Assembly (NCBI RefSeq): GCF_020520425.1
Contig: NC_079490.1
Location: 4,774,001-4,838,000 of the forward strand
Length of the DNA: 64,000 nt
Reading direction: 5' to 3'
DNA from: Spinacia oleracea
Lineage: Eukaryota > Streptophyta > Magnoliopsida > Caryophyllales > Amaranthaceae
A program made the translations under genes and the position numbers. Under the pieces are notes generated by a model. That model was not told where the DNA came from, made no database searches, and saw only the letters and a program-made list of their open reading frames with translations. Positions 40,816 through 60,455 of the stretch are shown piece after piece (position 1 is the first letter of the stretch; each line of letters starts with the position of its first letter).

Positions 40816-41317
40816 CCCATCTACTTAGGTTCATGAACAATGTGCTCTCATACTAATTGTCACAGTTAAAGAGTGTATTACCTTCTTCACTTATCATTTA
40901 AATCTAATAAACTTAAAATCTCTACTGAATCCCATCATCTAACGTACACACTAAAATATTTCATAAATTAATTAGATACAGATAATTTATACTTGTTCCT
41001 TAATTCCGGTTAATATCTGAATTTTTATCCTTTCCTAACTAGACTTACAACTCTCTGCAAAAATTAAAAATATGAGAAAAGTTGTTGCACATCAAATAGA
41101 TAACCAGATTAGAAATTTATAAGTCGTGAATCAACAAGATATAAAAGAATTACCATTGACTTTAATTCAGTAATATTGCTAATGATAGGAATTCATAGTG
41201 CTTCTTGAATAAACTATATTCGTAAATTTGTAACGATTTCAAATGATAATTAGGTTGATGCTCCTATAATAAGGTGCTTGTGATTTTCAAACGTTGAAAA
41301 GGATTCACAAGTCATAC
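40816..41317. repeat. Left copy of a 502-bp direct repeat flanking the giant element
   Basis: Identical by eye over the whole length to 59954-60455, in the same orientation (starts CCCATCTACTTAGGTTC, ends GATTCACAAGTCATAC). It ends exactly where the inverted repeat of the giant element begins. It does not start TG or end CA, so it is not LTR-like, and it codes for nothing. Confidence 0.95.
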
Positions 41318-41375
41318 ACAGAGGGTAAGTGGTCCCTGTGTACCCTGGCCATATATTGGTTCAATCCACCTCAGC
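41317..41375 (+). repeat. Left terminal inverted repeat of the giant element
   Basis: Begins CACAGAGGGTAAGTGGTC and pairs with 59883-59939; shared features include GGGTAA, GTAC, CCAT and TCAGCAT in the same order. Roughly two thirds of positions match by eye. Confidence 0.65.
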
Positions 41376-42445
41376 ATCGCCACATCATCCCCCAATTTCA
41401 ATTTGAAATTTCAGCTTCACTTTGAATTTGAAATTCAAATGGCTGAGAATTTTTTTTTCCTTTATTTTCTGTCGATGATACCAAAGTTAGAAGGAATTTT
41501 TTTTTTCCATTTCATCTCATCTCTGTCAATGGTAGGTGATGAAAGGCGATACACCATTTTAATTAAGGTCACCATGTTAATATCGCTGTAGATTGCAATT
41601 TCCGTCGTGTTTTTGGATTATTTTGTTCGAATTAAGAGCTGTTATGGGCACGAAATCAATATTGTCGAATTGATTAATGTTTAATTTGTGAAAAAAAAAT
41701 TCTGCATTTCAGATTTGATAAGATCCAATCGGAGAAGATGACTGCGGAGTTTCCAAAGTAAATATTCTGTTTTAAAAAGCGCCCAAAAAAAAAATTGAAA
41801 AATAGTGGTTGTCAAGGCTCGAACCCCGTACCGCAGCGTGGATGAATGAAAGAGTTATTGATAATGCTAGTAACCATTGTGACAGTGAGGCAAAGCCATT
41901 GGCAATTGTCATGCAAATTTCTAGTTAAGCACTCCTTGTAGTTCTAAACGTTAATGAGTAATTAATTTTACGTTGTATATCAATATTGACTCCCCATCAT
42001 TGTGTTGTACGTTTTTATATAATGTATGATGATACCTCCCCTATTATGTTATACATTTGTATGTCTTATAAAAATGATGCCCAAATTTATTTTGTATTTT
42101 ATTATTTTATTTTTTTGAACCGAAGTTATAATTTAAATCAATCATTTCATTAATAAACTATAATTGCAAGTTATAAGAATATTCAATAATTAAAATTTCT
42201 TGTTAAACAAATAGTACATCAAAATAACAACTTATAATATATATCCTTTAGTCCACAGTCGTACGTTGTTATATCCTAATTGCGTACACAAATGTTACAT
42301 CATAGTACCGTACACAAATTCAAAAGTGTCATACCAAAGTCCTAAACCCCTCCGAAACAGTATTAAGTACCGTTTTTACTACTTAAATTAGACACTAATA
42401 AGTAACGATAAACAAAATGTTACATATTAGTCTATTGCCGAAAAC
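41376..42445. other. Left subterminal region of the giant element
   Basis: No gene. Contains one arm of a ~390-bp repeat (41758-42147) that recurs at 44256-44639; each arm follows the 3' end of a minus-strand gene. Inside each is a tRNA-like segment on the minus strand (CACAATGGTTACTAGC ... GGGTTCGAGCC), also seen at 56015-56132. Confidence 0.6.
41758..42147. repeat. Internal direct repeat, copy 1
   Basis: About 95% like 44256-44639 by eye, with a few substitutions and small indels. It includes the SINE-like segment and an AT-rich tail ending near ttttttgaaccgaa. Confidence 0.85.
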
Positions 42446-43082
42446 CTATTCCTCAGCGAACAACCTACGCAACGACTCCCCGTAATCGTCGTCGTCCCAA
42501 ATACGTTTCCATTCCTTGCAAACAGCTCGAATTATTTTCCCTTGACGGGCCGAAAAATTCGGGAAAATATGAAGAGCTAAAATGAGTTCGTTATAAAACA
42601 CATCATGCGCCTACAACATTGAACATTTTAGTTAGGAATTGTTGTTTAACTAAAACTAACATTACGCAACCTAAATTAAAATCAAAATAAAGACCAAAAC
42701 ATAATTTTCAAAATTTCGGAATAATAACACTAACAAACATAATTAAAACTTCTCACCTAAATTATGTACCAAAACCAAAAATAAGAATAGAAAGTAACTA
42801 ATATTTTCACCTTAAATTTTGTACAAAATATTATTTTCAAGTCAAAATTAACAATATAATTTAACTAAAATTAACACTCATTAAGCCTAATTGACCCTAA
42901 ATAGAATTGAAGTAAAATTAACAAAAATAACCCTAAGTTTAGTGGTAAATTTGTTACGAAAAAAACTTGCCAAAATTACCAAAAAATGACTATTACTAAA
43001 AAAAATCGAAATCATGATCTTACAACCTCCCATTTGAGTAACTAAAAAAAAGAAAATGTTTAATTACCTTGATCTCCTCCAT
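42446..43082 (-). CDS. Small two-exon protein of the giant element (59 aa)
   Basis: Exon 1 43068-43082 encodes only MEEIK and exon 2 42446-42610 encodes 54 residues to a TAG; GT-AG sites are good (ATCAAG|GTAATT; GTTGTAG|GCG). Exon 2 contains FPNFSARQGKIIRAVCKEWK and an acidic DDDDYGESLRRL stretch. I do not recognise a family. It is basic in the middle and acidic after, and could be a small nuclear partner protein. The clean frame between good splice sites is the main support; expression is unproven. Confidence 0.5.
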
Positions 43083-44255
43083 TGTTGAGTGGTTTTTGGT
43101 GGAAACTTGAGGGTTTTGGAGAGTGTTGGGTGGAAGAAAGGTGAAGTAGGATTTTTCAAGTGAACTTGAAGATCCTATTTATAATGTGTTTCCAAGTAAG
43201 TGTTTTAGGGCAATGTAAACTATAATGTGAGGCTTGAATTGTTATTGTAATACGAGAAACTTTTGAACTTCCGGATTTTATTTTCACACTGCCAAATGAG
43301 TTAAGTTGTATTGAGATGTTAGAGCATTCCCCAGCTGTGAACAATTAATTGTTGCTATTTACAGTTTTGTTGTATATGATTTTGAACAAATTTACTTTCG
43401 TTGAAAAACGAAAAAGTAAATCAGCTTTATTGATATAAGTGAGACGCGTGGTGCATGTAATAAATTAGAGGAAGCCAGCGCAATAATGCAATAAAAGTGG
43501 GTTCATTTTTATGTATTTTCTGAAAAAATTCGTAAACAATTTTGGTAAATTTTTTCACAATTGTGTAAAATTCATTTGGTTTATTTACTAGTAAAAGAAA
43601 AAATCAGATAAGTTGGTATATATATTGTTTTATTTCGCATGTTAGTTTTATAACGACATTAACAATATTAGATAGATATAACAATGTAAATTATCGTAAA
43701 AAACTCATATTTTAAAGAGTGGTAATGAAAAATTTATTGATTTAAATAAGTATATAATTTATAATATATAACCATAAATTAACAATTTTAGTTATCAGAT
43801 CTTTTTGCATGTTATGTCAACGAGCCGAGCTCAACCGAGTATTTCGGTGTTCGACCTAGGATTAGGCTTGATGAGAAATTTCCGATCTCGAGCTCGAGCG
43901 GAGCTTAAATGAGCTTTCATTTTTCCGTTGTTTTAGCTTAGGTCACGAGTAGCTTGTTTAAGTTCAAGCTCGAGCCTAGCCGAGGTATTACCAAACGTGC
44001 CTTAATAAACGAGCGTTTAACAAACACGCCTTAAATTACCAATATCGAATTTAAATGATCATATGAATAAATTAAATATTATTTAAAAATATTATAAAAC
44101 ATAAAAACATATCCAAATTAAAAGGTAGCACAGTATCCTATTTATATTTTGTTAGCTGAGAAGATTAATAGGACTAAGTTACATTTGCTGTGAGGCTTAA
44201 ATTATCACTGCATGGCTCGTGTATTAGGGCAACTCGAGCAGTGTAAAACCCTTCG
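43083..44255. other. Non-coding part of the giant element
   Basis: Promoter side of the 59-aa gene and AT-rich sequence. A gagctcgagc-rich repeat-like stretch lies at 43817-44000, similar to 37200-37330, perhaps a nested hAT MITE. No gene seen. Confidence 0.4.
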
Positions 44256-44639
44256 TAATGTAAATATTCAGTTTTAAAAGGTGCCCAAAAAAAAATTGAA
44301 AAATAGAGGTTCTCAAGGCTCGAACCCTGTACCTCAGCGTGGATGAATGAAAGAGCTATTGATAATGCTAGTAACCATTGTGACAGTGAGGCAAAGCCAT
44401 TGGCAATTGTCATGCAAATTTCTAGTTAAGCACTCCTTGTAGTTCTAAACGTTAATGAGTAATTAATTTTACGTTGTAGATCAATTTTGACTCCCCATCA
44501 TTGTGTTGTACGTTTTTATATAATGTATGATGATACCTCCCCTATTATGTTATACATTTGTATGTCTTATAAAAATGAACTCATTTATTTTGTATTTTAT
44601 TATTTTATTTTTTTGAACCGAATTTATAATTTAAATCAA
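44256..44639. repeat. Internal direct repeat, copy 2
   Basis: Partner of 41758-42147; lies just past the stop of the GRF zinc-finger gene. Confidence 0.85.
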
Positions 44640-44750
44640 TACATTCCATTATTCGGTAATTAACAATAAAACTAGAATAAAAACCTGTAACCAAAAAAAT
44701 AATAAAGAAATATATTGCGTCCAAAGAAACCCCTACTTTATTATCTACTG

Positions 44751-45293
44751 TTACACTCTCCAAGTATTTAGAGAAAAAAATAATACAAAGAATGTCAAAA
44801 TAACGCACATTCTAAAACTTAGTTTTTCATTTGATTTTGATTCATAAAAGCGTAGCATGATATCCTCATTCCTTGCCTCCAAATATGCAACTTTTTCCAA
44901 CAGCATTTTATTTTCTAGAAATATCTTTTCAACTTGGAATTTCAAGCGCACAGTTTCTTGCTTGAGATTACAATTCTCATCTTGTAGCTCATCTAGAATG
45001 TTACCGTTTACCTCACTTTCCCAAAAGAAAAAACCACAAGTATCATCCTGTAAAAAAACCGATCATCATTCTGAAAACCAAAATGTTGGGAAAAAGTGAT
45101 TTAAATCTACCTAATGAATCGATTATATTACCTTCCATACCGGGCAAGAGTAAAATTGTTGGCCCTTGTTTTTTGTGTGTTTGCATGTTTGTAGCTTGGC
45201 CTTGTAACCATGGTAACATTGAACTTGCTGTGCCTTACAAGAACTGCCTCGCGAAGAATTTGCCGAATTGGGTGTTCCTTGCTCAATAGCCAT
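44751..45293 (-). CDS. GRF-type zinc-finger protein with coiled coil and C-terminal membrane segment (152 aa)
   Basis: Two exons, 45132-45293 and 44751-45047, phase 0, giving 152 aa. The zf-GRF domain spans about residues 26-65: CYHGYKAKLQTCKHTKNKGQ, QFYSCPVWK, then DDTCGFFFW, with Cys26, His28, Cys50 and Cys58 as likely zinc ligands; GRF fingers bind single-stranded DNA in other proteins (e.g. APE2, TOP3A). Residues 75-125 look like a coiled coil (VRLKFQVEKIFLENKMLLEK), and CVILTFFVLFFSLNTW near the end is a membrane helix. GRF plus tail-anchor proteins are common in plant genomes, often near transposons. Head-to-tail with the 426-aa gene. Confidence 0.8.
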
Positions 45294-45600
45294 ATATATT
45301 CTTACTAAATGTTAATTTTTGTTTTTTTTTTTTTTGGGCACGTAATGTAAGTAGATATCCCACAGAAACGGTCATTATATAGAAGTCCAGATTGTTACCG
45401 TTGCAATTTAACTTGAATAAAAAAATAATAATCTAATAACAATACAACGAAAACCTAACCTAGTTAAATAATAAAAAATTAAAAAATCTAATCGTGGGAG
45501 ATAGGATAACTAAAATGAATACAACAAATTAATAAAACTATAGGAAAGTTATTTGGACACATACTTGAAAATTGTTTGCAAACAAAGTCGACGACAATTA
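45294..45600. other. Spacer between two minus-strand genes of the giant element
   Basis: AT-rich spacer between the GRF gene start and the stop of the 426-aa gene; presumably the GRF promoter and the neighbour's terminator. No element recognised. Confidence 0.4.
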
Positions 45601-47312
45601 TTAAATATTCCCATACACAAATTCTTCAATGACGGGTCCAAATCCGTAATCACCATTTGGTCCTTGATCTGCTTTTAATGTCCTGTCAATGTCCTGTTGG
45701 TCCCATACTCGTACGCGGCAGGCGTCGGGTGCCATGTTCAGATCAGCTCTGGACGATGCTAGCCTATCGATATATATGATCTGTTATTTTTAAGGGAAAT
45801 AATTGTTGTTAGGTACATGTATACCTATGGTTTTCATAAACAAACGAGTGTTTGTTATTAATGTTGTTATAACTTACAAGCAGTAGAAGTGTGCATCCAC
45901 CATAGCCCTGAATTGAATTTTTGAATTTTTCCCCGTATTTGACAAGCCAATCCAACACATATGCTGCCCAATTATACTTTGTTGCCTCTGAAGCTTTGTC
46001 TAAGACGGTGATATGTATCGGGCTTATCCAACCACATTTTTGTGTAGGACAAAGGAGAGTTCCTAAAGCATATAGTAAGAAATGTTTTTTGAAACTAATC
46101 TTGTCTATATGACAGTCGATTATTTTTGAATAAACCTCAGATTCTGTAACCGCACCATAAGATGTGTTTTGTTTATACTGCCTCTTTGTGTGAATATCTA
46201 CAAGTTTTGAAGAATTATTTGGTAGCAAAAGGTGCTTCCCCGAATTTAAACCTAAAACCCAACTAATTGTTTCCTCGTCTATTTTAACGTAGTAATTGTC
46301 CCGTATCTTCAGCTCTAAGTTGTCCGGGTCAAACCTAGACATGATCCAATAACCAAATGTTGCGTCAATATGATTGACCCTTATATACAATAGTTCCTCG
46401 AAACCCATTTCCACCACCCATTTTTTTTGTGGTTCTGTTAATTTTGCAAGCATTTGTGCAAATTGACTTATACCACAACCCATTCCAGGAATCTGACCAA
46501 AAAAAAAAACAATACAGTACATGAATTTAGTGATTTATTTAAAACTATAAACATTTTAATTAAAAAAAAATCCATACATTTCTAATTATACAATCCCTAT
46601 TTCTAAAAACTTCGATCATATTTAAATAATATTACATATGTAACTCATAAAATGTCACTAACCGTTGTCGAACATTGACCATAGTCGTTATGTTCCCCTT
46701 CATTAGCCTCCGTATGCTGTTGTGCATTGATATTCGGCTATACAACAAAAATGAATTTAAGTTACTATAATAAGACAAACTTTAAAAATCTAAATACCTT
46801 AATCGGCATAAACATACCTTTTTAATTGGACTTAGATTTGTAACATTTTTCTTTTTTTTCCCAGTTGGATGAGTTGCCGCATAGTTAGTGTGTTGGATAA
46901 TGATGTTAACCAATCTTTTCTTCAGACCCAAATCCACCATTGCCTGAAAGTCTTCTGAATTTGAAAGTAACCTCCCTTCGCTGTGAAATTTTTTAATGTC
47001 GGCGACATACCAGATCTTGTAGTCATAGTATCCCATAGATCTAATTATATTATGCAGATAGTTGAAGTTTAATATGGTCGTTGCTATCATATACAATTTT
47101 GACGACCCTTTTTTATATTGGCGGCGTGGATGGAAAACAATTTTCCCCTCACGCCAAACTACAAGCCATATTTTGGCGGTCTGTGTTATTGGTTCTCTGC
47201 GATAAAACGATTCAATTACAAATTATTCAACAAATTAAAAAACAAAAACAAACCCAGATAAAGGTAATCGATTAACATACCTTAATAGCGACAGTCCTCT
47301 TTGATTATTCAT
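45601..47312 (-). CDS. PB1-like / transposon-associated mobile-domain protein (426 aa)
   Basis: Five exons: 47281-47312, 46818-47196, 46663-46737, 45878-46492, 45601-45780; all GT-AG and in frame, 426 aa. The N-terminal ~100 residues (KIWLVVWREGKIVFHPRRQY, then SMGYYDYKIWYV and LLSNSEDFQAMVDLGL) resemble the PB1-like domain at the start of many plant MuDR-type transposon proteins. Exons 4-5 form a domain typical of plant transposon-borne Ulp1-family proteins: LTEPQKKWVVEMGFEELLYI, RFDPDNLELKIRD, ISWVLGLNSGKH, LLYALGTLLCP and IIYIDRLASS. It is paralogous to the centre of the 950-aa protein on the other strand. No protease or transposase catalytic motif. Role unknown, perhaps DNA or protein binding in transposition. 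Confidence 0.75.
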
Positions 47313-47632
47313 TATCTGCCAAAAAAATTGAACTCAGATCTGGTTGTGTAGATTAATTTGAAGAAAGGAGATTTTGGTTTCCGGTAAACTAAGTGTGGTT
47401 GCTGGTGATATTTACAAAGTATTCCCCACAATTCCCGTAAATGTCGAAATAGTATATGCAAAAGCAAAAGCAAAAGCAATACGACGAATATAAAAAAAAA
47501 TTATATTTCAATACGAATAAAACAAAGACGTCATTGATTTTAATATAAAAACTTTTTCAAGCCGTACAACGTAATATTTAAGAAAGTGCATACGATAAAC
47601 GTTGCATGTAACCACTTCTACAACAAAATTCC
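47313..47632. other. Spacer in the giant element
   Basis: Spacer between the 426-aa gene start and the 155-aa gene stop. A short gcaaaagcaaaagcaaaagc repeat lies at 47458-47478. Confidence 0.4.
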
Positions 47633-48197
47633 CTAGTCTTCTTGTGTTAAATCAACGAACACTATCTTTTTCTGTTTCCCTTCCTTGAGCAAAAATTCGT
47701 CCTCTTCTAAAGGTTCTCGCTTTAGTAGTCGATCATCCGCTTTTGCTACCGCAATTAGTCGATCTCCCTTCTGGTTTGGTTTAATTTTTTCAAAAGACCA
47801 ATTCTCAACTAAGTAATAGTCACGTTCTTCCATAAATACTTCACTTACATTAGGAGCGCATCGTAGATCGCTTACTATCTTGGAAGTTTCAGAAGGTCCT
47901 AAACGCTTGATAATGAACCGCATAAATCTCCTCCAATCAATTTTGAATTGCTCCTGTTGAAGTTCCACCGCCAAGTACTTACACCAACGGGGTGTAGATG
48001 GTACATCTACAACAAACATGTCCGAAATCCATGTTATATTAGGCTATTTTAAGTGTAACTCGCTAATAATATTAAAACGCCGTTTTAGTAGGAGTTAGCT
48101 TACCTTTTCCACATACTCGAATTTTTGATATTTCCTTCATTCTTGACGAACTTGTGACGCCATGAGTTAGCTTACCTCTTCGATTCACCGGTGCCAT
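47633..48197 (-). CDS. Unknown 155-aa protein with a C-terminal SUMO-interaction-like motif
   Basis: Two exons, 48104-48197 and 47633-48006 (GGAAAAG|GTAAGC; TTGTTGTAG|ATG), 155 aa. The family is not recognised. Residues after the junction include FKIDWRRFMRFIIKRLGPSE and a charged C-terminal half; the protein ends KIVFVDLTQED, which fits a canonical SUMO-interacting motif (hydrophobic-Val-Asp-Leu-Thr with acidic neighbours). The element's 950-aa protein carries a Ulp1 (SUMO protease)-like region, so a SUMO link is conceivable. The donor sequence gtaagctaactc occurs twice (48092-48103 and 48157-48168), offering an alternative short exon 1. First gene left of the 255-bp array. Confidence 0.65.
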
Positions 48198-48808
48198 TCC
48201 CACAATAGTTCTTGATGTACTTAAATGTTCAACAAATTGTATTCGTGGTTTGTTTGTAGTTGTTGAATTGCTATTTCATTTTGTATGTCTTATGTATATA
48301 TATGCACCAATGCACCATATATGGATTTGGAGCACATGTGTTTTCTGGCGGGAAAAGTAGAACTAATTAGGCGTAATTTAGTGTGTTGTTTATCACGTCG
48401 TTATGAATTTTTCAGACCAAATTAATAGTTTTGTTGTTAATTACGTAGATAATCGTAGACAAACATGGTTGTATGTAAAGTAGTTTCGTTATATATTGAA
48501 TAGCGTAGTTTTCCCGCCAGACATTTGCATTGGTAGTCCCAAAAGCTGAAAAGTGGTTGCATTGTAAAATGTGCTATATAGCACTAGCTTCGATACTTTG
48601 CAGAAGTGAAGTTTAATGGGTTAAAGATTTAAGTTGTATAATATTATGTATGACTATAATGGGTTAAAGATTTAATTTGTATAACATCAGATCTTTATTT
48701 TGTATTTAACTAAAGTGAAATGAATGTCTAAAGTCTTCGTCACTTTAACATGATTTGATTGGGTTCAAGAGTCAAATTAACCTAGACAACCTTGGTAACC
48801 AAGATCAG
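48198..48808. promoter_or_regulatory. Left part of the divergent intergenic region
   Basis: Upstream of the 155-aa gene (-). AT-rich, with an agtttaatgggttaaagattt duplicated motif at 48610-48670. No gene. Confidence 0.4.
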
Positions 48809-50012
48809 AATGAGATTTGATTCGAGTATTCAAGACCAGATTAACACTTGTAACTCTTGTTTGTTCCTAATCCGTCGATACAATTGGTTCTACTTTGATC
48901 GGACCAAATGGCCAACTAAACCTAATCACCCCGTATTGAAACAAACCGTCTAGTGATTCGATTTAAGTGAGTGAAGTGTTTATTGTTTTGTTCAATTGGT
49001 TGACCTTTGATCGGAACGAATGTTCACCTAAACCTAATCACCCTGTGTGGAACGACACCATTTAATGAGATTTGATTCGAGTATTCAAGACCAGATTAAC
49101 ACTTGTAACTCTTGTTTGTTCCTAATCCGTCGATACAATTGGTTCTACTTTGATCGGACCAAATGGCCAACTAAACCTAATCACCCCGTATTGAAACAAA
49201 CCGTCTAGTGATTCGATTTAAGTGAGTGAAGTGTTTATTGTTTTGTTCAATTGGTTGACCTTTGATCGGAACGAATGTTCACCTAAACCTAATCACCTTG
49301 TGTGGAACGACACCATTTAATGAGATTTGATTCGAGTATTCAAGACCAGATTAACACTTGTAACTCTTGTTTGTTCCTAATCCGTCGATACAATTGGTTC
49401 TACTTTGATCGGACCAAATGGCCAACTAAACCTAATCACCCCGTATTGAAACAAACCGTCTAGTGATTCGATTTAAGTGAGTGAAGTGTTTATTGTTTTG
49501 TTCAATTGGTTGACCTTTGATCGGAACGAATGTTCACCTAAACCTAATCACCTTGTGTGGAACGACACCATTTAATGAGATTTGATTCGAGTATTCAAGA
49601 CCAGATTAACACTTGTAACTCTTGTTTGTTCCTAATCCGTCGATACAATTGGTTCTACTTTGATCGGACCAAATGGCCAACTAAACCTAATCACCCCGTA
49701 TTGAAACAAACCGTCTAGTGATTCGATTTAAGTGAGTGAAGTGTTTATTGTTTTGTTCAATTGGTTGACCTTTGATCGGAACGAATGTTCACCTAAACCT
49801 AATCACCCTGTGTGGAACGACACCATTTAATGAGATTTGATTCGAGTATTCAAGACCAGATTAACACTTGTAACTCTTGTTTGTTCCTAATCCGTCGATA
49901 CAATTGGTTCTACTTTGATCGGACCAAATGGCCAACTAAACCTAATCACCCCGTATTGAAACAAACCGTCTAGTGATTCGATTTAAGTGAGTGAAGTGTT
50001 TATTGTTTTACC
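48809..50012. repeat. 255-bp tandem array, about 4.7 copies
   Basis: Units begin at 48809, 49064, 49319, 49574 and 49829 (each with aatgagatttgattcgagta), an exact 255-bp period. The last unit stops after about 180 bp. Units are almost identical (e.g. ccctgtgtgg versus ccttgtgtgg). Within each unit an accaaatggcc/aacgaatgttc pair shows an older half-unit duplication. No ORF. It lies between the divergently transcribed 155-aa and 950-aa genes. Confidence 0.95.
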
Positions 50013-50487
50013 TATTTAACCCTTAGTGAACGATAAGGGACTTTTAGTTAGAAATTTACACATAATTTATAATCGGGCCTAATACTCACCTAAAATATGT
50101 CTTGGCAAGTGAAATTAAACGTATACATACAATTTAAAGTTAACGGTGTCCTTAGCTATGTGTATTTATAATACAATAAAAAACATTAAGACCGAAAAAA
50201 ATTAAATAAATTTGAATTAAAGTTAAATAAAAAAAGGGAAAGATAATAGTGTAATTAATGTCAACAAAACTACATTTTGCTTTTCTTTTGTGTATAGGAA
50301 GAATCAAACGCGTGCCATTCATTGCAAAAAGTGTCTCCGTTTTGAAAATCTGCCAAAAAAAAAAAGAAGCACTCAATCTTCTCATCTCTGTTCACACTCC
50401 AAAACCCACCCCAACAAGGTGAACATCCGATATTCGTTCGCCGGAAACATAGGAAAATTCGTCAAGAGTTTCTTTGAGCCAATTGAA
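50013..50487 (+). promoter_or_regulatory. Promoter and leader of the 950-aa gene
   Basis: AT-rich sequence, then transcript-like sequence from about 50290 that runs into the exon whose last bases supply the first two bases of the start codon. Confidence 0.45.
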
Positions 50488-53400
50488 ATGTAAGTTCTTA
50501 ATTTGTTTCAACCATTACATAATTGTGTAACCGAAGTATTAAATTCGCCAAAAAGTGAATCCGAGAAGCTATGTTTGAGTGTTGCATGTAGCTATTCCAC
50601 ATTAAAAACCCGGAATTTATTGATTTGTTTGTGTTGCTCCGTTGTTAATGTTTGAATTGTGTGTAATAAAACCCCCAGGGAGGCAGATCCGGCGCATACG
50701 CACTACGATTGCATTCTTAAACTAGCGGCGTGCTACAGGGATGACTCCGACGACGATGACTCTAACTCCGGCCAGCCGCACAAGTCCCAATCCACCCAAC
50801 CTTCTCAACTCTCAGAGGTACAGTATCACTTAACTTGTAATTTTAGATTTATCGTAACTAATTATTGTTAGTAGCGCTTCTCTAATTAGTGTTCCTATAA
50901 AAACCTTTGTTAGCTCGAACAAGAAACTGTCGATCCAATTGGACAGTTCGTGGGCAATGAAACTGAGGTATTGTTTGTAAAACCAGTGAGCCTTGAGTAT
51001 GAATTACATGTTTATCTTTTTTGAATTTTTTTATTCACTATGTGGATTGATTTTAATTTGTAGGATTCTAATTTCATTGATAAGAACACCCAGAAAAGTA
51101 GTGGAATTAACAAGTCCGGTGATGATTTCACTAGCAATGAACCAATTTGTATGCAGCCCTTGTTGGGGGTAAGATTGTGTTGAACTGGTGACTAAAAATT
51201 ATTTATTGGTTAACTTTTGTTTTTCGTTGTATAGTTATACCTTCTTTACCAAAAAAAAAACTCTTGTTTTTTCTGTTATAGGAGTCAAACACAATTAATA
51301 GTGTCACTGATGTTCGCGGTGAATTTGAAAACCCCGCATTTGCGGTGAACAATAGTCAACCATTAAATTTCAATTTTGATGATAATTTAACTTTCGAAGA
51401 TTTCTCACAGGTAATGACTGCATCCCTATATTGATTTGGTTTGATTTATCCATACGAAATATTTAAATCACTTATTAAGAAATAATCACAACACCGCTTG
51501 ACAACACATTTTATGTTTTGTAGGACAACATATGGAACGACATTAACTATTCCAATCCTGACAACCAATGTGACATACCTTATGAGGCTCCCACGGGCAC
51601 GAACAGAGGGGTAGGCAACTTTTCATATATTCGTTGCCATTGTTTGTGGGTACAAAGATGATTATCTTTAACCAAACTTTTTGTTGTAGGATATCGAGGG
51701 TCAACAAACTAATAATACAATTGAAAGCGATCCAATATTACCCAATGAGGGTAATGCTGCTTCTGGAGTAAACAATGATCTGCCGGTTGAAGAGGGTAAG
51801 GTTCAAAACAAGCATGGTCGTCCACGAACGGTTAAAACAGCAACAGTTCAAAAAAAAAAAACGGGTGGTAAATGGGTAAAGGGCGGACCAGGTAGACCAC
51901 CAAAGGAACAGGGGCCACGAACTAAGGTATTGGTCGTACAACATTATCTGTACTTTGTGTAATTTTTTGATTGACATTATCCTAACTCATTTAAACTATT
52001 TTGATTGACATTGTGTTGTAATTTTTGAAATATTTCAGCACACTGCCCTACGGACGTACCCTGGCCTTGTTTGTGACATCCTAACCGAGTTGTGTCCTAT
52101 AAGGAAGGATTGGGTCATAGCTGCTGGTTTTGGGTCTATTTTGAACCTAAAAATAAGTAAGGTAGATAGATATTTCATTACCTGGTTAGAGAGTAGGTGG
52201 GATTGGAAAAGACGAGTGCTTCGCATACGCGATGATTATGAGATAGTGATTGATGAGAGAATGGTTTCTTGGATCACTGGAATTCCTGTAGGGGTTTATA
52301 GAATCCCCTTTTTAAATAAGACCGATAAGGAACTTGGAAAATTGTTTAAGGAGTACGTCAGGGAAAAGGATGGAGGAATAGACTATGTCTGGTTGTATAA
52401 CAAGTGTTTATGGGAGGTTCAGGATGAGATGGTTTTTCTTCGCGATTTCATACTACTGTCATTTGGTTGCTTGTTTTGCATGACCAAATACAACTTCATA
52501 TCCATCAAATTATTGGCACTACTGAAATCAACATACTTTACAACACCCCGAGACTGGAATTGGTGTGGGTTTCTTTACGACTGGATTGCAGGTCATGAGA
52601 AGGAGAAGGGAAGACCATCTTCGATTATTTTAATGGTTAGTGAGGATAGACGTTGTGCGCATCGTCCGTGTTTTTTTTTTTTTTTGTAATTAGTTATTCC
52701 TCCCCGCGAATGATAACTACTCCATCTTTTGGCAGATTGCTTACCTGGACAGGTTAAAGTATGGTGTTACTCCGTTGGCTTGGAAAACTGATACACCTAG
52801 ATTAGGGGCATGGCTACAAGATGATGTCACAAACGCTATTGCACAAGATTTGGGACCGGATGGCGAATATGGCCATGCAGAGGTAAAAACCAATATCTAA
52901 CTTTTTTGTTGTATTGAACAATATATGTTATTCAGTAGTGATCATTTATACGCCTATTTAGGTTGTACTGAATGTTGAGTATGGGAAACCATACCCCATT
53001 GGCAAGCCGTTAGAGCGGACCCCATGGGATGCCCTTGCTGAACGAACACTTCTTAGTAAGAGGACTGGTACACCAATGTTACCCTCTAAAGCGTCAACCA
53101 AAGCGGATAGTCGATCAAGGAACGTGGATTATAGATGCCGGGGCAAGAGGAAGAGGAAGGTACGAGTCTTTATTATATTATTGTTTGTTGTAACTGGTTT
53201 TTGTTACAACCTACTTCACCGTGATAATTATCACTAAACTACACAGGCCACACTTGAAGGCTCCGTACAACAAAATGCTTATGATACAAGGCGTGGACGA
53301 AGTTATAGAGCTGCCAATAAAAACATTGATGACCTTGATGGTCCTCATCAGGACGAGGAATACGCTACGGGGCCTGAAAACAGAAACCTGAATGAGGATG

Positions 53401-54731
53401 ATGGTGTTGAGGAACCTCAAAACAACACGGGTGATGACATTGACAGTGTTGGAGTTGTTGATGGTTACACAACTGGCAGCGATGATGGACTTTCCATGCC
53501 AGATGCTTTACAGCATAAAACTGTCATTGAACCAAGAACGTTAAAGATTTCAACTATGATTTTGACCGTGAACAAGTTTCCAAACCAAATGGTGTTTAAA
53601 GCTGGTGATATCACGATTGATCGGATCATGCTTCAAACGTCCTTTAAGTCCAAAGGCGAAGTACATGATAATGTATGGGGGTTGCATTTTGTAATTAGTT
53701 AATAGGTCTCTGGATTAGTTTTCTCATACTAACATTGTCTTATTGGTTAGGTGATGTCTGCATGGTGCGCGTGTTTGAATGCTGATACGACCTCCGGAGT
53801 TGGCATAAGGTCTTACGTGCTTATGCCAGATCTCATGGTAAGCTTATTATGCAAATACATAGTAGTAGACACCCATTAACCTTATATACGAAGTAATGCT
53901 ATGGATGTTTAAAACGTAGGGTGAATTGTTAGACCTTGAAGAATCAAGTGAGAACTACACAGAAGCTTTGTTAATGAAATCAAAGCAACTACTTGAGGAC
54001 ATCAACTACTACCAGATTGATTTGGGTGCAATAGAAAAGGTAAGTAGTCTTATTTTCGCACAGAAATGGTGGTTTACGGCTATTAACTCTATGTTGTGCA
54101 ATCAGCTTTATGTCCCGATTAAACGCCGAGGACGGTGGGTGGTTGTTAAAGTGGACCGTGTTGCGCATAAGGAGGATCTTAACTCAAATATGTTGAAAAT
54201 GACTATTTTTGCACCAAGGCAAAAGGTTATGGGTTTAAATGCTAGGGATAAATTCGTATACAAACTGGTACGTACTGCTATTTTCGGGAAACATACTTCC
54301 GCCTTAATCTCGTATTAATTCGATAAAACCCAATTGTAACAGGAACGTATGTTTTTGGGTTTTCAATCGCACTTGGGATTAAAAAATGATGAATTGACCT
54401 TAAATACTGCCTCTTTTGATCTATGGTCAAATGGACCAAAAGAGAAATGTCGCCAGGACGGGGGTGTACTGTGTATGATCTACCTCTTGTCATCCGTTGA
54501 GAACGTGGCAGAGTGGTTGGAGGTAAGACTATTTAATTTACATGTGGAAATAAGTTGTTTTAATTTTTTTTTATTAATCACTACACTAACCGTGTGTTCA
54601 TTAATTATGACTAGGGCTACGTAGAGGAGGTGAGGGACGTCCGGAATTACATGCTCGGACGGCTAGTTACAAACCCACACAATGAAATCAAAGTGGACGA
54701 GCTAATAAGGAAATTGACTGACGGACAATGA
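50488..54731 (+). CDS. AT-hook / mobile-domain protein with degenerate Ulp1-like C-terminus (950 aa, 15 exons)
   Basis: Exon ends: 50489; 50679-50817; 50914-50967; 51064-51168; 51282-51410; 51524-51610; 51690-51926; 52039-52635; 52736-52882; 52962-53159; 53247-53672; 53751-53837; 53920-54267; 54343-54522; 54615-54731. Every site is GT-AG; the ATG is split AT|G by intron 1 and all later introns are phase 0; 950 aa without a stop. Exons 2-6 are acidic and disordered; exon 7 has AT-hook-like motifs (KHGRPRT, PGRPPK); exons 8-9 form the transposon Ulp1-associated domain (WVIAAGFGSILNLKISKVDR, MVSWITGIPVG, AYLDRLKYGVTPLAW). Exons 12-15 resemble a C48 protease fold (KWWFTAINSM, YVPIKRRGRWVVVKVD, RQDGGVLCMIYLL), but Arg stands where the catalytic His should be and the QxxxxCG cysteine is missing, so probably a non-catalytic SUMO/ubiquitin-like binding module. 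Ends 142 bp from the convergent XRCC3-like gene. Confidence 0.8.
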
Positions 54732-54873
54732 TGGTTATTGATTTGGTTGTATGGTAGGATTTCATTAACAAAAAATTTAGTAGCGTATTACTCGCAGCAT
54801 AACTGCGTCTTTTAAACATGTTAAACATTTTCTAATGTTCATTGGTCTTATTGGCACAATTTCTTAGTATCTT

Positions 54874-55677
54874 TTAACTACAAACACCGACAATCCCCTC
54901 TTCAGTGATGTTGAACATACATGCATCTACCTCTAATGATGGTGAAAATGCAATGTTTATAAATCTGTCAATTTGTTGGGTAAACGAATTAAATCTTTTG
55001 GACAACATTAGACGAGTGCGTACATTGCGTGTCCATGAGGCGCCCAAAGCCGGACGGACCTTTCTCCCGGACGATATAATGAAATTTTGCGTTGTATCGT
55101 GATCAGATGGAAATACGTCAATCACATTGTTAGCCACAACAACGGCAACATGATTGGATGCGGCAATTGTACGTAACCCATAACCAATAGCTTGTATAAG
55201 ATCCTTTCTTTCGGTTGAGCCAACAACATTGTTTTCAAAATGACCAGTGAACATACTACCTATTGAATCAATAACAACAACGCGGATTGGCATTGATGAA
55301 TTTTGAGACATTTTAATAAGTTTTACAGTCCATTCTAGCACATCCGGTATTTCATGAGGAGTGTCAACTTGCTTTGTAGTTATGTAATCCAAAGGATTTC
55401 CATTTAATGTTTCAAGGTCCCCTAAAACATATGGAACTAATCTACTTAAACGACGTATGGGAAAGGGACCAAGTGAATGGATATATATAGCCGAGGAACA
55501 AATACCACCCCTTGAAGGCGGCAATTGACAAGAGAGACTAATTTGAAGGCAAAATTGAGTCTTACCTGATGCATTTTCGCCACACACCTCAGTCACTTCA
55601 CCGATTGTTATTCCCCCACTCAACATCGAATCGATTTCACTGCATCTCGTTGTGATTTTGTTTACACTAGTAGCCAT
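54874..55677 (-). CDS. XRCC3-like RecA/RAD51-family ATPase carried by the element
   Basis: Intronless ORF of 267 aa. RecA-fold layout close to the RAD51 paralogue XRCC3: CSEIDSMLSGGITIGEVTEV, Walker A GENASGKTQ (about residues 33-41), FCLQISLSCQLPPSRGG, a SSAIYIHSLGPFPIRRLSRL segment, Walker B IRVVVIDSIGSMF, VAVVVANNVIDVF, and SSGRKVRPALGASWTRNVRT, ending in an AFSPSL...EEGIVGV strand. All ATPase residues look intact. Host XRCC3 acts with RAD51C in homologous recombination and is about 300 aa with introns; this shorter intronless form suggests capture, perhaps through cDNA, then divergence. Lies between the 950-aa gene and the transposase. Could assist end processing, gap repair or target invasion, which is inference. 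Confidence 0.88.
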   Translation of the reverse strand: MATSVNKITTRCSEIDSMLSGGITIGEVTEVCGENASGKTQFCLQISLSCQLPPSRGGICSSAIYIHSLGPFPIRRLSRLVPYVLGDLETLNGNPLDYITTKQVDTPHEIPDVLEWTVKLIKMSQNSSMPIRVVVIDSIGSMFTGHFENNVVGSTERKDLIQAIGYGLRTIAASNHVAVVVANNVIDVFPSDHDTTQNFIISSGRKVRPALGASWTRNVRTRLMLSKRFNSFTQQIDRFINIAFSPSLEVDACMFNITEEGIVGVCS

Positions 55678-56295
55678 TCTTTGTGATGTAGTAATCTCTT
55701 ATAATTACTTTTTCTTTGAAATGGAGGGATTGAACACACCCTTATATTCACCTAGTTCTAACATGTCATTGATGGATCATGTTGTTTCCAATAAATAATA
55801 TTCATATATTACAAAAAATAAGGGGCTGACTTTTGCATGACATGGGAATGCATTTTTTGACTACAATGACCAAACACATCATGTTTACATTTGGTAAGAC
55901 TAGTATAATGAAGTCGTTGTTTTTATAATTGTTTCCCAGTGTAATAGATTCGTTGTATGTACATTATTAATTAATATAAATTATACAATAAATAGTATTG
56001 TTGCCCACAAATATCACTGGCTTAGCCTCACTGTCACAATGGTTACTCTTTCCTCCTCATTGAGCATATTGTCTACCCGTTGGTTGTGGGTTCGACGCCT
56101 AATACAACTCATTTTGTATTTTTTTTTTTTTACACTGATAAAGTAATTGAGGTTACATCAATTACATATATAGACATAACGTAAAGTACATAGCAAAAAG
56201 GGAGGATTGGATTAAAAAATTCAATTCTTAAAATACCGTTTAAACGAAAATATATCTTTGAAGAAATCAAATTAAATTACATTTACACAAAACAT
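55678..56295. other. Spacer with a SINE-like segment
   Basis: Upstream of the XRCC3-like gene and downstream of the transposase. The segment 56015-56132 is tRNA-like (CACAATGGTTACTC ... GTGGGTTCGACGCC) ending in a T run, related on the opposite strand to those in 41758-42147 and 44256-44639. Target duplications are not clear. Confidence 0.5.
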
Positions 56296-59007
56296 TCACA
56301 ATCTGGTGCGCCAATCGTTAATATCAAATTCAAATGACTGTGAACAATCCTGAGACAAATGTAATTGGGACGGGTGTGCTTGAGAACTTTGAGAAGGATG
56401 TACATTAGAACTTTGTGGGACGTTCTCCGCATATGTACCCCCAACGTGATTCGCGTGTTGTTGCCTAGCACGGTAACTTGGAAGATTTCCAAATGCGTTG
56501 CAAATAAGTTCCTACATTGCACAAACAACATTTAAGTAGAAAAGTAAAGTTATATTTCCTAATGAAAACTTGCATATACGATACGAATCACCAAACAAAT
56601 AAAATATAAATTTTACCTCATTAGCAATAACTTCCTCTTCAGTAACCACTTTTTTGTTCTTAGAATTCCCACCGGCCTTTCCACCAAAAGGAGCATTCCT
56701 TTTTGTCTTTGCCCTACCAGTATGCCGTTTGTCAACCGGTGTTTTGATCCTGTTCTCGTCCACGACCGGTTCTACATCCCTTAATCTGGCTCTCTCACCA
56801 AATTCTCGTGGACGTAGCCTTCGACGACCAAATACATTTCTCGCATCTGGGTCCCACCAACATATAAGGTCGTCCCCTTTTTCCCCAGTCTTTCGTATTC
56901 CGACTACATCCTCCATTTTTAGCCGCACAACATCCATAGCCTCCTTGTACAACCGAAGTGCATCATCATTACGCATAGCTAATTCAGACAAGTAATTATG
57001 CCGTTGTGAAAGCTCTTTGGCTTTGCCCAATCTGATAGATTCAAGAGGGTCGAAGTAAGATACTCGAATGCTCTCGTACGACCTAACACACTTCATCCAC
57101 CGTTGTAGTATGTACTTTTCTGGAACAAATTGAAAATCCTCTACATCCATTGCACGCATTATATGTCTACAAAGTATTCCCGTAAATTCAAACAAGTTAC
57201 AAGAGCAATGTAAATCACCATTTTCCTTATCCACCCTAACATCATAACTTTTAAACCTTTTCCGCCAAAACGGTGAGGTTAGTTTTTCATCAGCTCTATA
57301 CAACACCACTGATCCATGACATGAGGTTTTCGTGACATTTGTGTGTGTCAATCCTCTACGCTCTTTAACAACCTCAGCAAACTTCTCACTAGTGTACGTC
57401 TTAACCAATACATACTCAACTAAAACACTCTTATCAACATCAATCTTAGCAGGCTTATCAATGTTATCAAAATTATCCTGTTTCTCTTCCTCAGCTTTTA
57501 TCCTCATACAATATTCATAATTATGAATGAACAAAACTAAACCACAATCTAAGTTCACGTGAGTTTTAAAAAATCTATTCATACCCTCACTCCTTTGTGT
57601 AGAAGACATACCTGCCCAAAACTTTCCTCTATTATATGCCGGAGCCCACTGACGCCTGTTATCATACGCGTCCTTCATCCACCCAGGACCCCTTAAACCG
57701 TACTCATCCATCACATGACACCAAGCTTCATCGAACTCATCTGGATCAATCAGATCATGTATTGCAGTTCTGATCAGGGTGTCTATTTTCTTCCAATCAC
57801 TGAGACTACCTAGGTTCTTACTAGCATTCTGGAGCATGTGCCACAAACATAGTCTGTGACGGACGCCCGGGAAGACTAGCTCAATTGCTCTACAAATTGC
57901 TTTGTCTTGGTCGGTTAAGATGCCTAGTGGTGCCTTCCCCATACACTTCAGGAATTCTTCAAATACCCAAACAAATGAGGGAGTATTTTCATGGGAAATT
58001 AAGGCCGCAGCAAATATAATTGATTTGCCATGATGGTTTACACCAATGAATGGAGCAAATGGAATCCGATACCTAAAACAATATAAATGTATTGGATATT
58101 ACTTTTTCAAACAAATGGACCAAAGTACAATTACAAAGAATTTAAATCAATAAAAACTTAATTAAAACACGTACCGGTTGCAAGCGAAAGTAGTATCAAA
58201 AGTAATAACATCCCCAAAATATTTGCATGTACCCCTACTACGTGCATCCGACCAAAATGCATTCGTAAAAACACCATCATCATCTACTTGTATTGAGCTA
58301 TAAAACTCGGGATGCAAATCACGTTGTGCCTTAAAGTAAGCATCGAGTCCTGCGGCATCTGCAGCACTAAATCTTGATGAACGACGTTCGACGTTGATTG
58401 CGTTCCTCAAGTCTCTATTATTAAATGTAATATTTTCATAACCTCCCTTTTCAATTAGATGCGTACCAAAGTTCTTACTTATGCTAACACCACCCATGTC
58501 ATTGATCATCGCCCTCTTAAATGTAGTACCGTCTATACATCTATAATTAACCATCAGTCTACTACAGTCAGGATTTAAAGGATGATTGTGTTGCAAGTCA
58601 CAAGTCAATATAGTAAATAGCCCATCTCTACTTACACCGTAAATATTCATCTTACAACCGGTCACATTAGACCCAACACCTTTTTTCACCCCTCCCTTCT
58701 TGCATTTTAATCTAATAAGTTCCATCATATGCGGCTTTGCCTCATACTTTCCCACACCAGACTTAGATACTCCCTTTTCTTTGTACTCTTTTTTCAGCTT
58801 ATTACTTTTGATAAACATCTCAAATCCTTCTTTGAAGGCATACAACTGACAAAATTCGAAAAACTCATGGCCCGTTGTAAAACACATCCCTACACTAGGG
58901 GGGTTAACGATAACTTCTTGTCCATCAGTTATTAATCTATATTGTGAGCTTTCAGGAACATTTTCATTCAGATCAGGGACACTTTCGTTTAGGTCTACCC
59001 AAGCCAT
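56296..59007 (-). CDS. FAR1/FHY3-type Mutator transposase (834 aa)
   Basis: Three exons, 58175-59007, 56617-58072 and 56296-56511, all GT-AG and in frame, 834 aa. N-terminal FAR1 zinc-binding DNA-binding region (about residues 40-150: GMCFTTGHEFFEFCQLYAFK ... CKMNIYG ... CDLQHNHPLN), then the MULE catalytic domain: first Asp in DVITFDTTFACNRYRIPFAP, second in GILTDQDKAI, the MULE CxxH signature HRLCLWHM, and a Glu in DEFDEAWCHVMDEYGL. A SWIM finger follows (CSCNLFEFTGILCRHIMRAM), then a basic tail with GGKAGGNSKNKK and a Gln/Ser-rich end. The acid triad and both zinc motifs are present, so the protein looks active; this is the enzyme expected to cut the inverted repeats of the enclosing element. 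Host FHY3/FAR1 transcription factors derive from this type, so domestication is the alternative. Confidence 0.93.
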
Positions 59008-59882
59008 ACAGAACTCCCACGTATATCACTGTTGTACAAAATACGAAAAACGTTTAGGGTTTTATAAAATGCTGCCAAACGTTTAGGGTTTTATAAAATA
59101 CAACAAACAAACAAATTATATACAACGATTTTAGAATAACCACTTAGTTTAGTGTTTAACCATATAGGATAACATACAACTTAATAACATTCTTAATACT
59201 ACGTAATTATAGAATGTATGAAATAAACAAAAAAAACACCTTGTTTTCTCCGTCGTGCAGATCTACTTTCTCACCAAAAACAAATTTATCAAATTAACAT
59301 GAAACTACAATTTTTCATTAACTCATCAATATCTGCCAAACAATCAAGATTCATCAATATCATGAAACTCCAATTTTTCATTAATTCAAACAAATTTAAC
59401 TACCCAAAAATAAAACATTCATATAGCATTGTTATTTTCAGGAATTAATTAACTACATTTGACAAAAACAATTTAACGAAAAACTTACATTAATTTCGAA
59501 GCGAGATTTCGAAGCTGAATTTCGAAGCTTAATAATGTTGTAGCAGCTCTAAACGTTTTGCTAAAAACTTTCCTGTGCGTTTTTGTTTGTGGCAAACTCG
59601 ATAAAATGGGAGATGATACAACCCCTTCAGCTTTGCCTTTATTTTCTTTGCTGAACCGTTTTCCAGAAAATATTACCGTTGAAGGTTGAATGAGCTTTTT
59701 TTTTAAAAGTTGAAGATTGAATTTTTATTTCTTTTTTTTTTAATTATTTTGCTGCTTGGGCGGGATTTGTTTTGGGGAGGAAAGGGGAGGTAATGTTCCC
59801 GCTTGAAAACACTAAAGGGCGGTTGATGCCAAATATTTTCCCCCTAAAACCAAATGCATTTCCCCCTAAAACTCAATTAATC
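59008..59882. promoter_or_regulatory. Transposase leader and right subterminal region
   Basis: AT-rich sequence upstream of the minus-strand transposase. A ttcgaagc motif is repeated at 59497-59530, and an acgtttagggttttataaaa repeat occurs twice at 59050-59098. Repeated tttccccctaaaac words lie at 59839-59872 near the right end, possibly transposase binding sites. Confidence 0.45.
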
Positions 59883-59939
59883 CATGCTGATTTGGACCAC
59901 TAAGATGGCAGTGTACCTGGGCCCCAATTACCCCCAGTG
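59883..59939 (-). repeat. Right terminal inverted repeat of the giant element
   Basis: Ends CCCAATTACCCCCAGTG, inverted match of the left end. Fourteen bases (taactgtatcatct) separate it from the right copy of the 502-bp repeat; a similar but shorter taactac stretch precedes the left copy. Confidence 0.65.
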
Positions 59940-59953
59940 TAACTGTATCATCT

Positions 59954-60455
59954 CCCATCTACTTAGGTTCATGAACAATGTGCTCTCATACTAATTGTCA
60001 CAGTTAAAGAGTGTATTACCTTCTTCACTTATCATTTAAATCTAATAAACTTAAAATCTCTACTGAATCCCATCATCTAACGTACACACTAAAATATTTC
60101 ATAAATTAATTAGATACAGATAATTTATACTTGTTCCTTAATTCCGGTTAATATCTGAATTTTTATCCTTTCCTAACTAGACTTACAACTCTCTGCAAAA
60201 ATTAAAAATATGAGAAAAGTTGTTGCACATCAAATAGATAACCAGATTAGAAATTTATAAGTCGTGAATCAACAAGATATAAAAGAATTACCATTGACTT
60301 TAATTCAGTAATATTGCTAATGATAGGAATTCATAGTGCTTCTTGAATAAACTATATTCGTAAATTTGTAACGATTTCAAATGATAATTAGGTTGATGCT
60401 CCTATAATAAGGTGCTTGTGATTTTCAAACGTTGAAAAGGATTCACAAGTCATAC
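59954..60455. repeat. Right copy of the 502-bp direct repeat
   Basis: Same orientation and, by eye, no difference from 40816-41317, at an offset of 19,138 bp. The following sequence (CCAGAAGATACTAG) is presumably the original continuation of the target locus. Confidence 0.95.

Follow-up and report, generated by a model that had tools for sequence, protein, structure and literature searches.

An 18.6-kb autonomous-looking Mutator-like element of spinach whose conserved gene set includes an XRCC3-related RAD51 paralogue

Introduction

A survey of Mutator-like elements (MULEs) across eukaryotes has assigned one or two open reading frames (ORFs) to each group, with a Plant-mobile-domain (PMD) protein encoded in antisense in one group (PMC6446971). 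The VANDAL/Hiun elements of Arabidopsis, which have been called non-TIR (lacking terminal inverted repeats), carry VANA, VANB and VANC (PMC13317346), and VANC proteins, which bear DUF1985, bind noncoding tandem repeats and remove methylation (PMC5735166, PMC10398659). Ulp1-carrying MULEs are named together with VANC in a review of plant gene capture (PMC13317346). Here, we describe an 18.6-kb block at positions 41314..59956 of a stretch of 64,000 nucleotides of the spinach (Spinacia oleracea) contig NC_079490.1 (positions 4,774,001 to 4,838,000; hereafter the window, to which all coordinates without a copy label refer). The block is a real, recently mobile MULE that encodes a transposase, an XRCC3-like RAD51 paralogue and two predicted proteins, a and b, and it appears to present a new cargo architecture for a MULE, namely a backbone of four genes to which a conserved RAD51 paralogue belongs.

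The element resembles VANDAL in having several genes on a MULE and in combining accessory protein with noncoding tandem repeats that vary rapidly, the VANDAL protein bearing DUF1985 (PMC5735166, PMC13317346). However, the VANDAL accounts name three genes and no RAD51 paralogue among them, and DUF1985 was not detected in the spinach element. Kaonashi (KIU) and the other Ulp1-carrying MULEs of Arabidopsis, melon, rice and grapevine are likewise multi-gene elements (PMC13317346) and recall the C-terminus of gene b, which looks Ulp1-like by eye, whereas Ulp1 is undetected in spinach, where XRCC3-like and GRF genes are added. The Jittery sub-group of dicots and monocots has a SWIM transposase related to FAR1-RELATED SEQUENCE proteins, as does the spinach element, but is described as having one ORF with an N-terminal FAR1 domain (PMC6446971), which in spinach falls below the cut-off. 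Plant Group 50, most members of which encode PMD in antisense, matches the PMD-like gene b on the strand opposite the transposase but has one or two ORFs, with no RAD51 paralogue listed for it (PMC6446971). Hvu_Abermu of barley, from a 2022 paper, also has more ORFs than is usual for a MULE, but these are three, are described as unusual, and the element is closer to MuDR (PMC9168764). Finally, XRCC3 itself is a RAD51-core ATPase like the element protein, the latter being element-borne and multi-copy.

Pack-MULEs, which are non-autonomous and carry gene pieces without a transposase, were considered and are ruled out by the intact transposase frame and the open cargo frames. RAD51 is not mentioned in the main text of the gene-capture review (PMC13317346), nor RecA in that of the MULE survey (PMC6446971), which was not searched for RAD51. 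The open literature yielded no MULE that carries a RAD51 paralogue, subscription journals and Repbase being outside this scope, so that a named entry may exist; "RAD51 paralog" was absent among the listed matches on transposon, captured and Mutator, and the listed papers on XRCC3 and captured plant elements concern, by their titles, meiosis, repair or retrotransposition. Nor did the open literature yield a paper on an autonomous Mutator-like element of spinach or on spinach XRCC3 in a transposable element.

Copies and termini of the element

The left end of the element, used as a query against the 894-Mb spinach genome, gives 49 matches, 20 of which run from the first base of the query at 93-100% identity and are spread over six contigs. 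The genome holds at least 19 near-identical copies, some incomplete, and ten besides that in the window were read whole or in large part (11 in all); these were chosen via left-end matches, and the share of full-length copies among them is a biased estimate. Divergence from the window copy is 0.03-0.13% for the five closest full-length copies and ~1-2% for two others. Single alignments at 99.89-99.94% span the block in C4:89, C3:75 and C5:5.06M, and C4:149 and C2:108 align in two pieces at 99.3-99.8% (gaps counted) because the tandem array between genes a and b differs. Four near-full copies show 7-23 substitutions relative to the window copy (0.04-0.13%), and C5:5.06M shows 6 mismatches. C4:86.98M is full length at mostly 98-99% identity and contains a nested 5-kb insertion. 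C3:11.70M (C3:11702300-11722299), also full length, belongs to a second subfamily: its interior is 98.8-99.3% identical to that of the window copy, its left end carries a 58-bp duplication, and its right end differs (74% over the last ~600 bp), which suggests that ends have been exchanged between subfamilies. The same left duplication is present in seven more copies. Three of the 11 copies (C4:188, C1:132 and C3:21) are internal deletion derivatives. C3:21 is the minus-strand member of an inverted pair ~18 kb apart, C3:21330161 and C3:21349937; in both members the frame of the transposase is interrupted by a single TAG, and the XRCC3-like match is cut at residue 128.

The canonical ends in the other copies are CGCAAAGGCTATGGATACACAGAGGG... 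at the left and ...CCCCCAGTGTAACTGTATCATCTCCC at the right. The start is CGCAAAGGCTATGGATACACAGAGGG, with the variant CACAAAGG in C1:132, and the right end is CAGTGTAACTGTATCATCTCCC, GCTCCC being a second right-end type. An earlier note on this DNA, made from the window alone, had placed the block at 41317..59939 between imperfect inverted ends. The block has proved to be bounded, repeated and 18.6 kb long, with its boundaries corrected to 41314..59956. The inverted similarity is present but subterminal, imperfect and gapped; in the window copy it extends over ~75 bp with a score of 25.5, and at their outermost bases the canonical ends show no inverted match. The ends appear to be of a TIR-poor or non-TIR type. 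The note's proposal of a self-mobile multi-gene MULE is borne out by other copies that have both ends and the gene order in common; in the same genome, the ends occur repeatedly, linkage of the genes extends to relatives, and 9-bp duplications mark the block as inserted.

Perfect 9-bp target duplications, within the 8-11 bp of MULEs and with junctions read by eye, flank eight of the 11 copies (C4:89, C2:108, C4:188, C1:132, C3:21, C5:5.06M, C4:86.98M and C3:11.70M), and the window copy, C3:75 and C4:149 are aberrant. In comparison with the ten other copies, the window copy has a complete right terminus and is missing 14-18 bp from the start of the left terminus. It is flanked by a perfect 502-bp direct repeat (40816-41317 = 59954-60455), which consists of a 499-bp target duplication (left copy 40819..41317, right copy 59957..60455, both on the plus strand) and a shared CCC. 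The last four bases of the left copy, ATAC, are common to the element as microhomology. The right end is clean, and it is at this ATAC, displaced by 499 bp along the target, that the left end is joined. The 502-bp repeat was also considered as part of the element and rejected, there being no such adjoining repeat at seven other copies compared. At C3:75 (C3:75.65M), a target duplication of ~4.7 kb is implied because the left flank (1,990 of 2,000 bp) is found again 2.7 kb past the right end. Both ends of this copy are truncated, and 22-25 bp at its right junction match the element itself as templated filler. At both the window copy and C3:75, one end looks to have been joined by microhomology end joining, as far as the junctions allow us to infer. 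At C4:149, no repeat of at least 12 bp was found between 2 kb of left flank and 6 kb of right flank.

Gene content

Gene models were obtained with a gene finder that combined splice matrices with codon usage learned from three of the element's open frames. It returned four transcription units with 31 exon entries, which were trimmed by hand to 26 exons in four units (3+1+14+8). The XRCC3-like model was cut back to its own open frame by removing three downstream exons that overlap gene b. Gene a was relieved of a zero-length exon and an exon 2.2 kb away, and its trimmed form has no terminal stop codon. In gene b, the initial exon of 2 bp is doubtful. The splice check against an annotated protein covers the transposase, and genes a and b are predicted models. 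The seven separate genes of the earlier note thus reduce to four transcription units. All four frames are open in three of six copies compared (the window copy, C4:149 and C4:89), and the coding regions of C5:5.06M show one substitution, no stop and no indel.

The transposase gene (56296..59007, minus strand) has three exons (58175-59007, 56617-58072 and 56296-56511) and encodes 834 residues with MULE and SWIM domains. The splice logic of the model is supported because 833 of the 834 residues equal those of the annotated spinach protein P0012, and the full-length MULE transposase that the earlier note had read is confirmed. In Pfam searches P0012 matches the MULE domain PF10551 at 1e-29, Transposase_mut at 1.1e-4 (21.6 bits against a cut-off of 21) and the SWIM zinc finger PF04434 at 9e-7 (28.7 bits against 19.6). 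The FAR1 module also claimed is not supported, PF03101 remaining under the Pfam cut-off in the transposase (E 0.099-0.2; 12.8-13.8 bits against 28.1). P0012 groups with P0018 and P0021 in the transposase tree. Among 19 transposase rows at 99% identity or more, 15 are full length without a stop.

The XRCC3-like gene (54874..55677, minus strand) is a single exon encoding 267 residues with an intact Walker A motif (GENASGKT) and Walker B motif (VVVIDS). The recombination ATPase of the earlier note is upheld: the protein matches Pfam Rad51 (PF08423) at 2.7e-26, and its closest solved protein is XRCC3 in the PDB (3.5e-28). Nine other full-length loci give an equal top score with this gene. The protein is ~32-39% identical to plant XRCC3 records, and the records 53-82% identical to it are all from Spinacia oleracea except for the fragment P0133. 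The element proteins form their own spinach group in the tree, to which the quinoa protein P0134, an annotated XRCC3 homolog with 39% identity, is weakly joined (support 89/99, below the starred level), and ten plant XRCC3-type proteins form a separate group (support 96/95). Capture of the gene may predate the split between spinach and quinoa. A separate host XRCC3 candidate, C4:148009937, has 36% identity and a 333-codon open frame. The single exon was dropped as proof of capture from RNA, since this host candidate likewise covers residues 5-266 with a single open frame. For the XRCC3-like protein, a structure predicted from a 6-row alignment had a mean pLDDT of 38.7, too poor for use.

Linkage of the four genes across the genome

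A search of the genome with the XRCC3-like protein gives 68 matches, from which 56 loci were taken. At 43 of these, the gene lies 748-1,918 bp 3' of a related transposase, always on the same strand and with the transposase upstream. The 13 unlinked loci comprise the host candidate C4:148009937, which is 587 kb from the nearest listed transposase, C6:748391, which is a full-length copy near genes a and b for which no transposase is listed, and 11 loci that are fragmentary or diverged, including one within the deletion derivative C1:132. The order is a(-) b(+) XRCC3-like(-) transposase(-) wherever two or more genes were found, with no order violation in 61 rows and no opposite-strand copy in the 42 rows listed.

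The linkage search extended over 35 kb for gene a, 25 kb for gene b and 5 kb for the XRCC3-like gene and scored the best candidates only, and absences are perhaps overcounted in the following numbers. The 19 rows with a 99-100% transposase include 14 with a, b and XRCC3-like, two with a and XRCC3-like and three with XRCC3-like only. The 33 rows with a 66-75% transposase comprise 19 with all three companions, five with a and b, three with b and XRCC3-like, two with XRCC3-like only, one with a only and three with none. The nine rows with a 77-80% transposase comprise six with a and b, one with a only, one with b only and one with none. At the diverged left end C3:11.30M, none of the cargo proteins was found in 4,850 bases at their expected place.

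A second transposase group, 47-49% identical, comprises 16 rows. Six of its loci (C2:11142167, C3:155152859, C3:137222435, C4:179421349, C6:3432233 and C6:59415564) have three PMD-like genes 5' of the transposase, their order and strands (same, opposite, same) being fixed, with 29.1-30.0 kb from the first gene to the transposase; other loci of the group have spans of as much as 42 kb or are missing part or all of the PMD-like set. This group may be an even larger MULE family, with ~30 kb between genes and no XRCC3-like gene detected.

Conservation of the coding regions

Coding divergence is five times lower than noncoding divergence when the window copy is compared with the second-subfamily copy C3:11.70M: 18 of 8,131 coding sites and 96 of 8,264 noncoding sites differ. 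The one-sided Fisher test gives 2.6e-5 for the transposase, 1.3e-4 for the XRCC3-like gene, 1.1e-8 for gene b and 4.6e-6 for gene a, and none of the 801 bp of the XRCC3-like gene is changed. Stops are absent from 14 of 15 full-length XRCC3-like copies at 98% identity or more, and also from 17 of 20 near-full-length diverged copies at 53-60% identity. Neutral simulations that reach this level of divergence, with substitutions only, remain stop-free in 0.5-0.75% of 400 runs each. Gene b differs from that of C4:86.98M by 12 silent and 13 replacement changes, with no stop by substitution. The XRCC3-like gene has very probably been under selection for a function in the element.

Genes a and b and other features

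Gene a (44805..48197, minus strand), trimmed to eight exons and 676 residues without a stop codon, is predicted to encode a PMD-like module (45878-46492) and a GRF zinc finger. Gene b (50488..54731, plus strand) is predicted to have 14 exons and 932 residues, with a PMD-like module in exon 52039-52635. The two proteins have a module of ~190 residues in common (30% identity, E 1e-22), for which structure prediction from two rows gave a mean pLDDT of 37.7, too poor for use.

The accessory modules listed in the earlier note fare differently. The GRF finger is confirmed in gene a by Pfam (5.2e-10). AT-hooks are represented by two GRP-type AT-hook-like motifs in gene b, seen by eye only, and Pfam finds nothing in this gene at E<=1. 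A PB1-like module is not supported, Pfam giving no match to PB1 in the element proteins. Nor is the SUMO-related module upheld: the C-terminus of gene b resembles a degenerate Ulp1 by eye only, Pfam and the PDB give no support (no Ulp1/SUMO protease match at E<=1 in Pfam and no PDB protease at E<=10), and the likely catalytic His and Cys are, by eye, Arg and Gly.

A 255-bp tandem array of 4.7 copies (48809..50009) lies between the divergent genes a and b; the array of C4:149 is shorter by one unit and that of C2:108 by two. The VANC21 motif (YAGTATTAY) has no site in the element, and a k-mer scan of the element gave no trustworthy motif. In the left part of the element, 41771..42142 (plus strand) is an internal duplicate of 44272-44640, ~370 bp long and ~95% identical at a spacing of 2.5 kb. 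To the right of the element, a leucine-rich-repeat receptor-like gene is predicted at 62439-63340 (model only, named by eye).

Proposed mechanism and alternatives

That the element is a multi-gene MULE is almost certain. We consider it about 75% probable that it is an 18.6-kb autonomous-looking MULE with a conserved gene set, including an XRCC3-related RAD51 paralogue, that likely promotes homologous repair of the excision gap. Cut-and-paste is the default for MULEs, and it is adopted here because of the transposase and the 9-bp duplications. In the proposed cycle, the transposase would excise and insert the element, loading or stabilisation of RAD51 at the broken donor site would fall to the XRCC3-like ATPase, and the 18.6-kb gap would be refilled from the sister chromatid or homologue, thereby raising copy number. 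A role as repair mediator best explains the XRCC3-like protein because its ATPase motifs are intact, it is conserved beside the transposase, and there is a long gap to refill; taken by itself, the gap-repair role of the protein is given a little less than an even chance. The two PMD-like proteins would bind noncoding DNA of the element, the 255-bp array being the candidate site, and would act against DNA methylation in the manner of VANC proteins on VANDAL elements. By this analogy, an anti-silencing role of genes a and b is tentatively proposed. The wider picture of a giant-MULE clade in which the RAD51 paralogue is core machinery and faithful gap repair leads to copy gain, while the PMD-like pair reads the element's own array against silencing, so that the element both repairs and unsilences itself, is rather unlikely to hold in full.

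Several observations weigh against this proposal. The XRCC3-like gene is found at none of the nine loci with a 77-80% transposase, the closest relatives in identity, and is missing from nine of the 33 loci of the 66-75% group and from the 18 rows with a 47-54% transposase; because of these groups, the gene is not indispensable for every relative, and it is either useful rather than essential or was lost there. Since 3 of 11 copies are internal deletion derivatives, gap repair is not always complete. The annotated protein P0001 has ~48 residues, including part of Walker A, spliced out between a GTAAG donor inside the GKT codons and a TTTTAG acceptor, which form a good GT-AG pair; this form, if real, would be unable to bind ATP, and it possibly reflects either regulatory splicing or an annotation artefact. 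The frames are not open everywhere: C3:75 has a 4-bp deletion in the transposase, gene b shows a 1-bp frame difference in an A-run in two of six copies (C3:75 and C2:108), and there are indels in gene b of C4:86.98M and a deletion in that of C4:188. The PMD match of gene a (0.0097-0.025) is under the Pfam cut-off, and Pfam finds no DUF1985 in genes a and b. Silent/replacement counts relative to C4:86.98M are 1/5 for the transposase, 1/5 for the XRCC3-like gene and 5/5 for gene a, and those relative to C3:11.70M are 6/2, 0/0, 2/2 and, for gene b, 0/4; these within-family counts are small and mixed, too few to settle selection.

The main rival is that the XRCC3-like protein acts as a decoy, binding host RAD51C or RAD51 and blocking homologous repair, so that breaks made by the transposase are steered to end joining or repair is delayed until reinsertion. 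The end-joining-like junctions of two of the 11 copies (the window copy and C3:75), with truncated ends, microhomology, long target duplications and, at C3:75, filler, would suit such a protein, as would the annotated model P0001 without Walker A. However, an alignment of six full-length spinach proteins shows no variation in the Walker A and B residues, a constancy for which a pure decoy would have no use, and 8 of 11 junctions are clean. We regard the decoy as unlikely. Passenger cargo, in which the MULE captured host genes by transduplication and non-functional cargo spreads by hitch-hiking, is improbable. Gene capture is known for MULEs (PMC13317346), and the XRCC3-like gene is missing at 9/33 and 9/9 loci of the 66-75% and 77-80% groups. 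Against this stand the 17 of 20 stop-free copies at 53-60% identity, where less than 1% is expected, the fivefold deficit of coding divergence, and the order and strand conserved across the clade. An ancestral host gene cluster that merely resembles a transposon has a negligible chance: the host-like annotation names (XRCC3 homolog, FAR1-related) would fit it, but it is refuted by the near-identical copies, which occupy many sites and have separate 9-bp duplications, and the sole separate host XRCC3 candidate is 587 kb from the nearest listed transposase.

For genes a and b, the alternative to anti-silencing is that they are accessory transposition factors that bind DNA in the transposition complex. 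GRF fingers have a DNA-binding role, and the finger of gene a and the AT-hook-like motifs of gene b, seen by eye, would suit such factors. Furthermore, both genes are kept at six of nine loci of the 77-80% group, which is without the XRCC3-like gene. On the other hand, the variable tandem array in a VANC-like arrangement favours anti-silencing. The accessory role is given less than an even chance.

Implications

DNA transposons of this class are thought to depend on homologous repair by the host for gain of copies, and they often end as internally deleted relics. If the proposal is true, the conserved RAD51 paralogue carried by this lineage would represent a transposon taking over the homologous-repair step, and it becomes a testable question whether the element protein raises the rate of faithful gap repair. 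Spinach records give element genes the names DNA repair protein XRCC3 homolog and FAR1-RELATED SEQUENCE, so that repair-gene counts in this genome are inflated by transposons. The element also shows that a MULE is able to hold a stable four-gene backbone over deep divergence.

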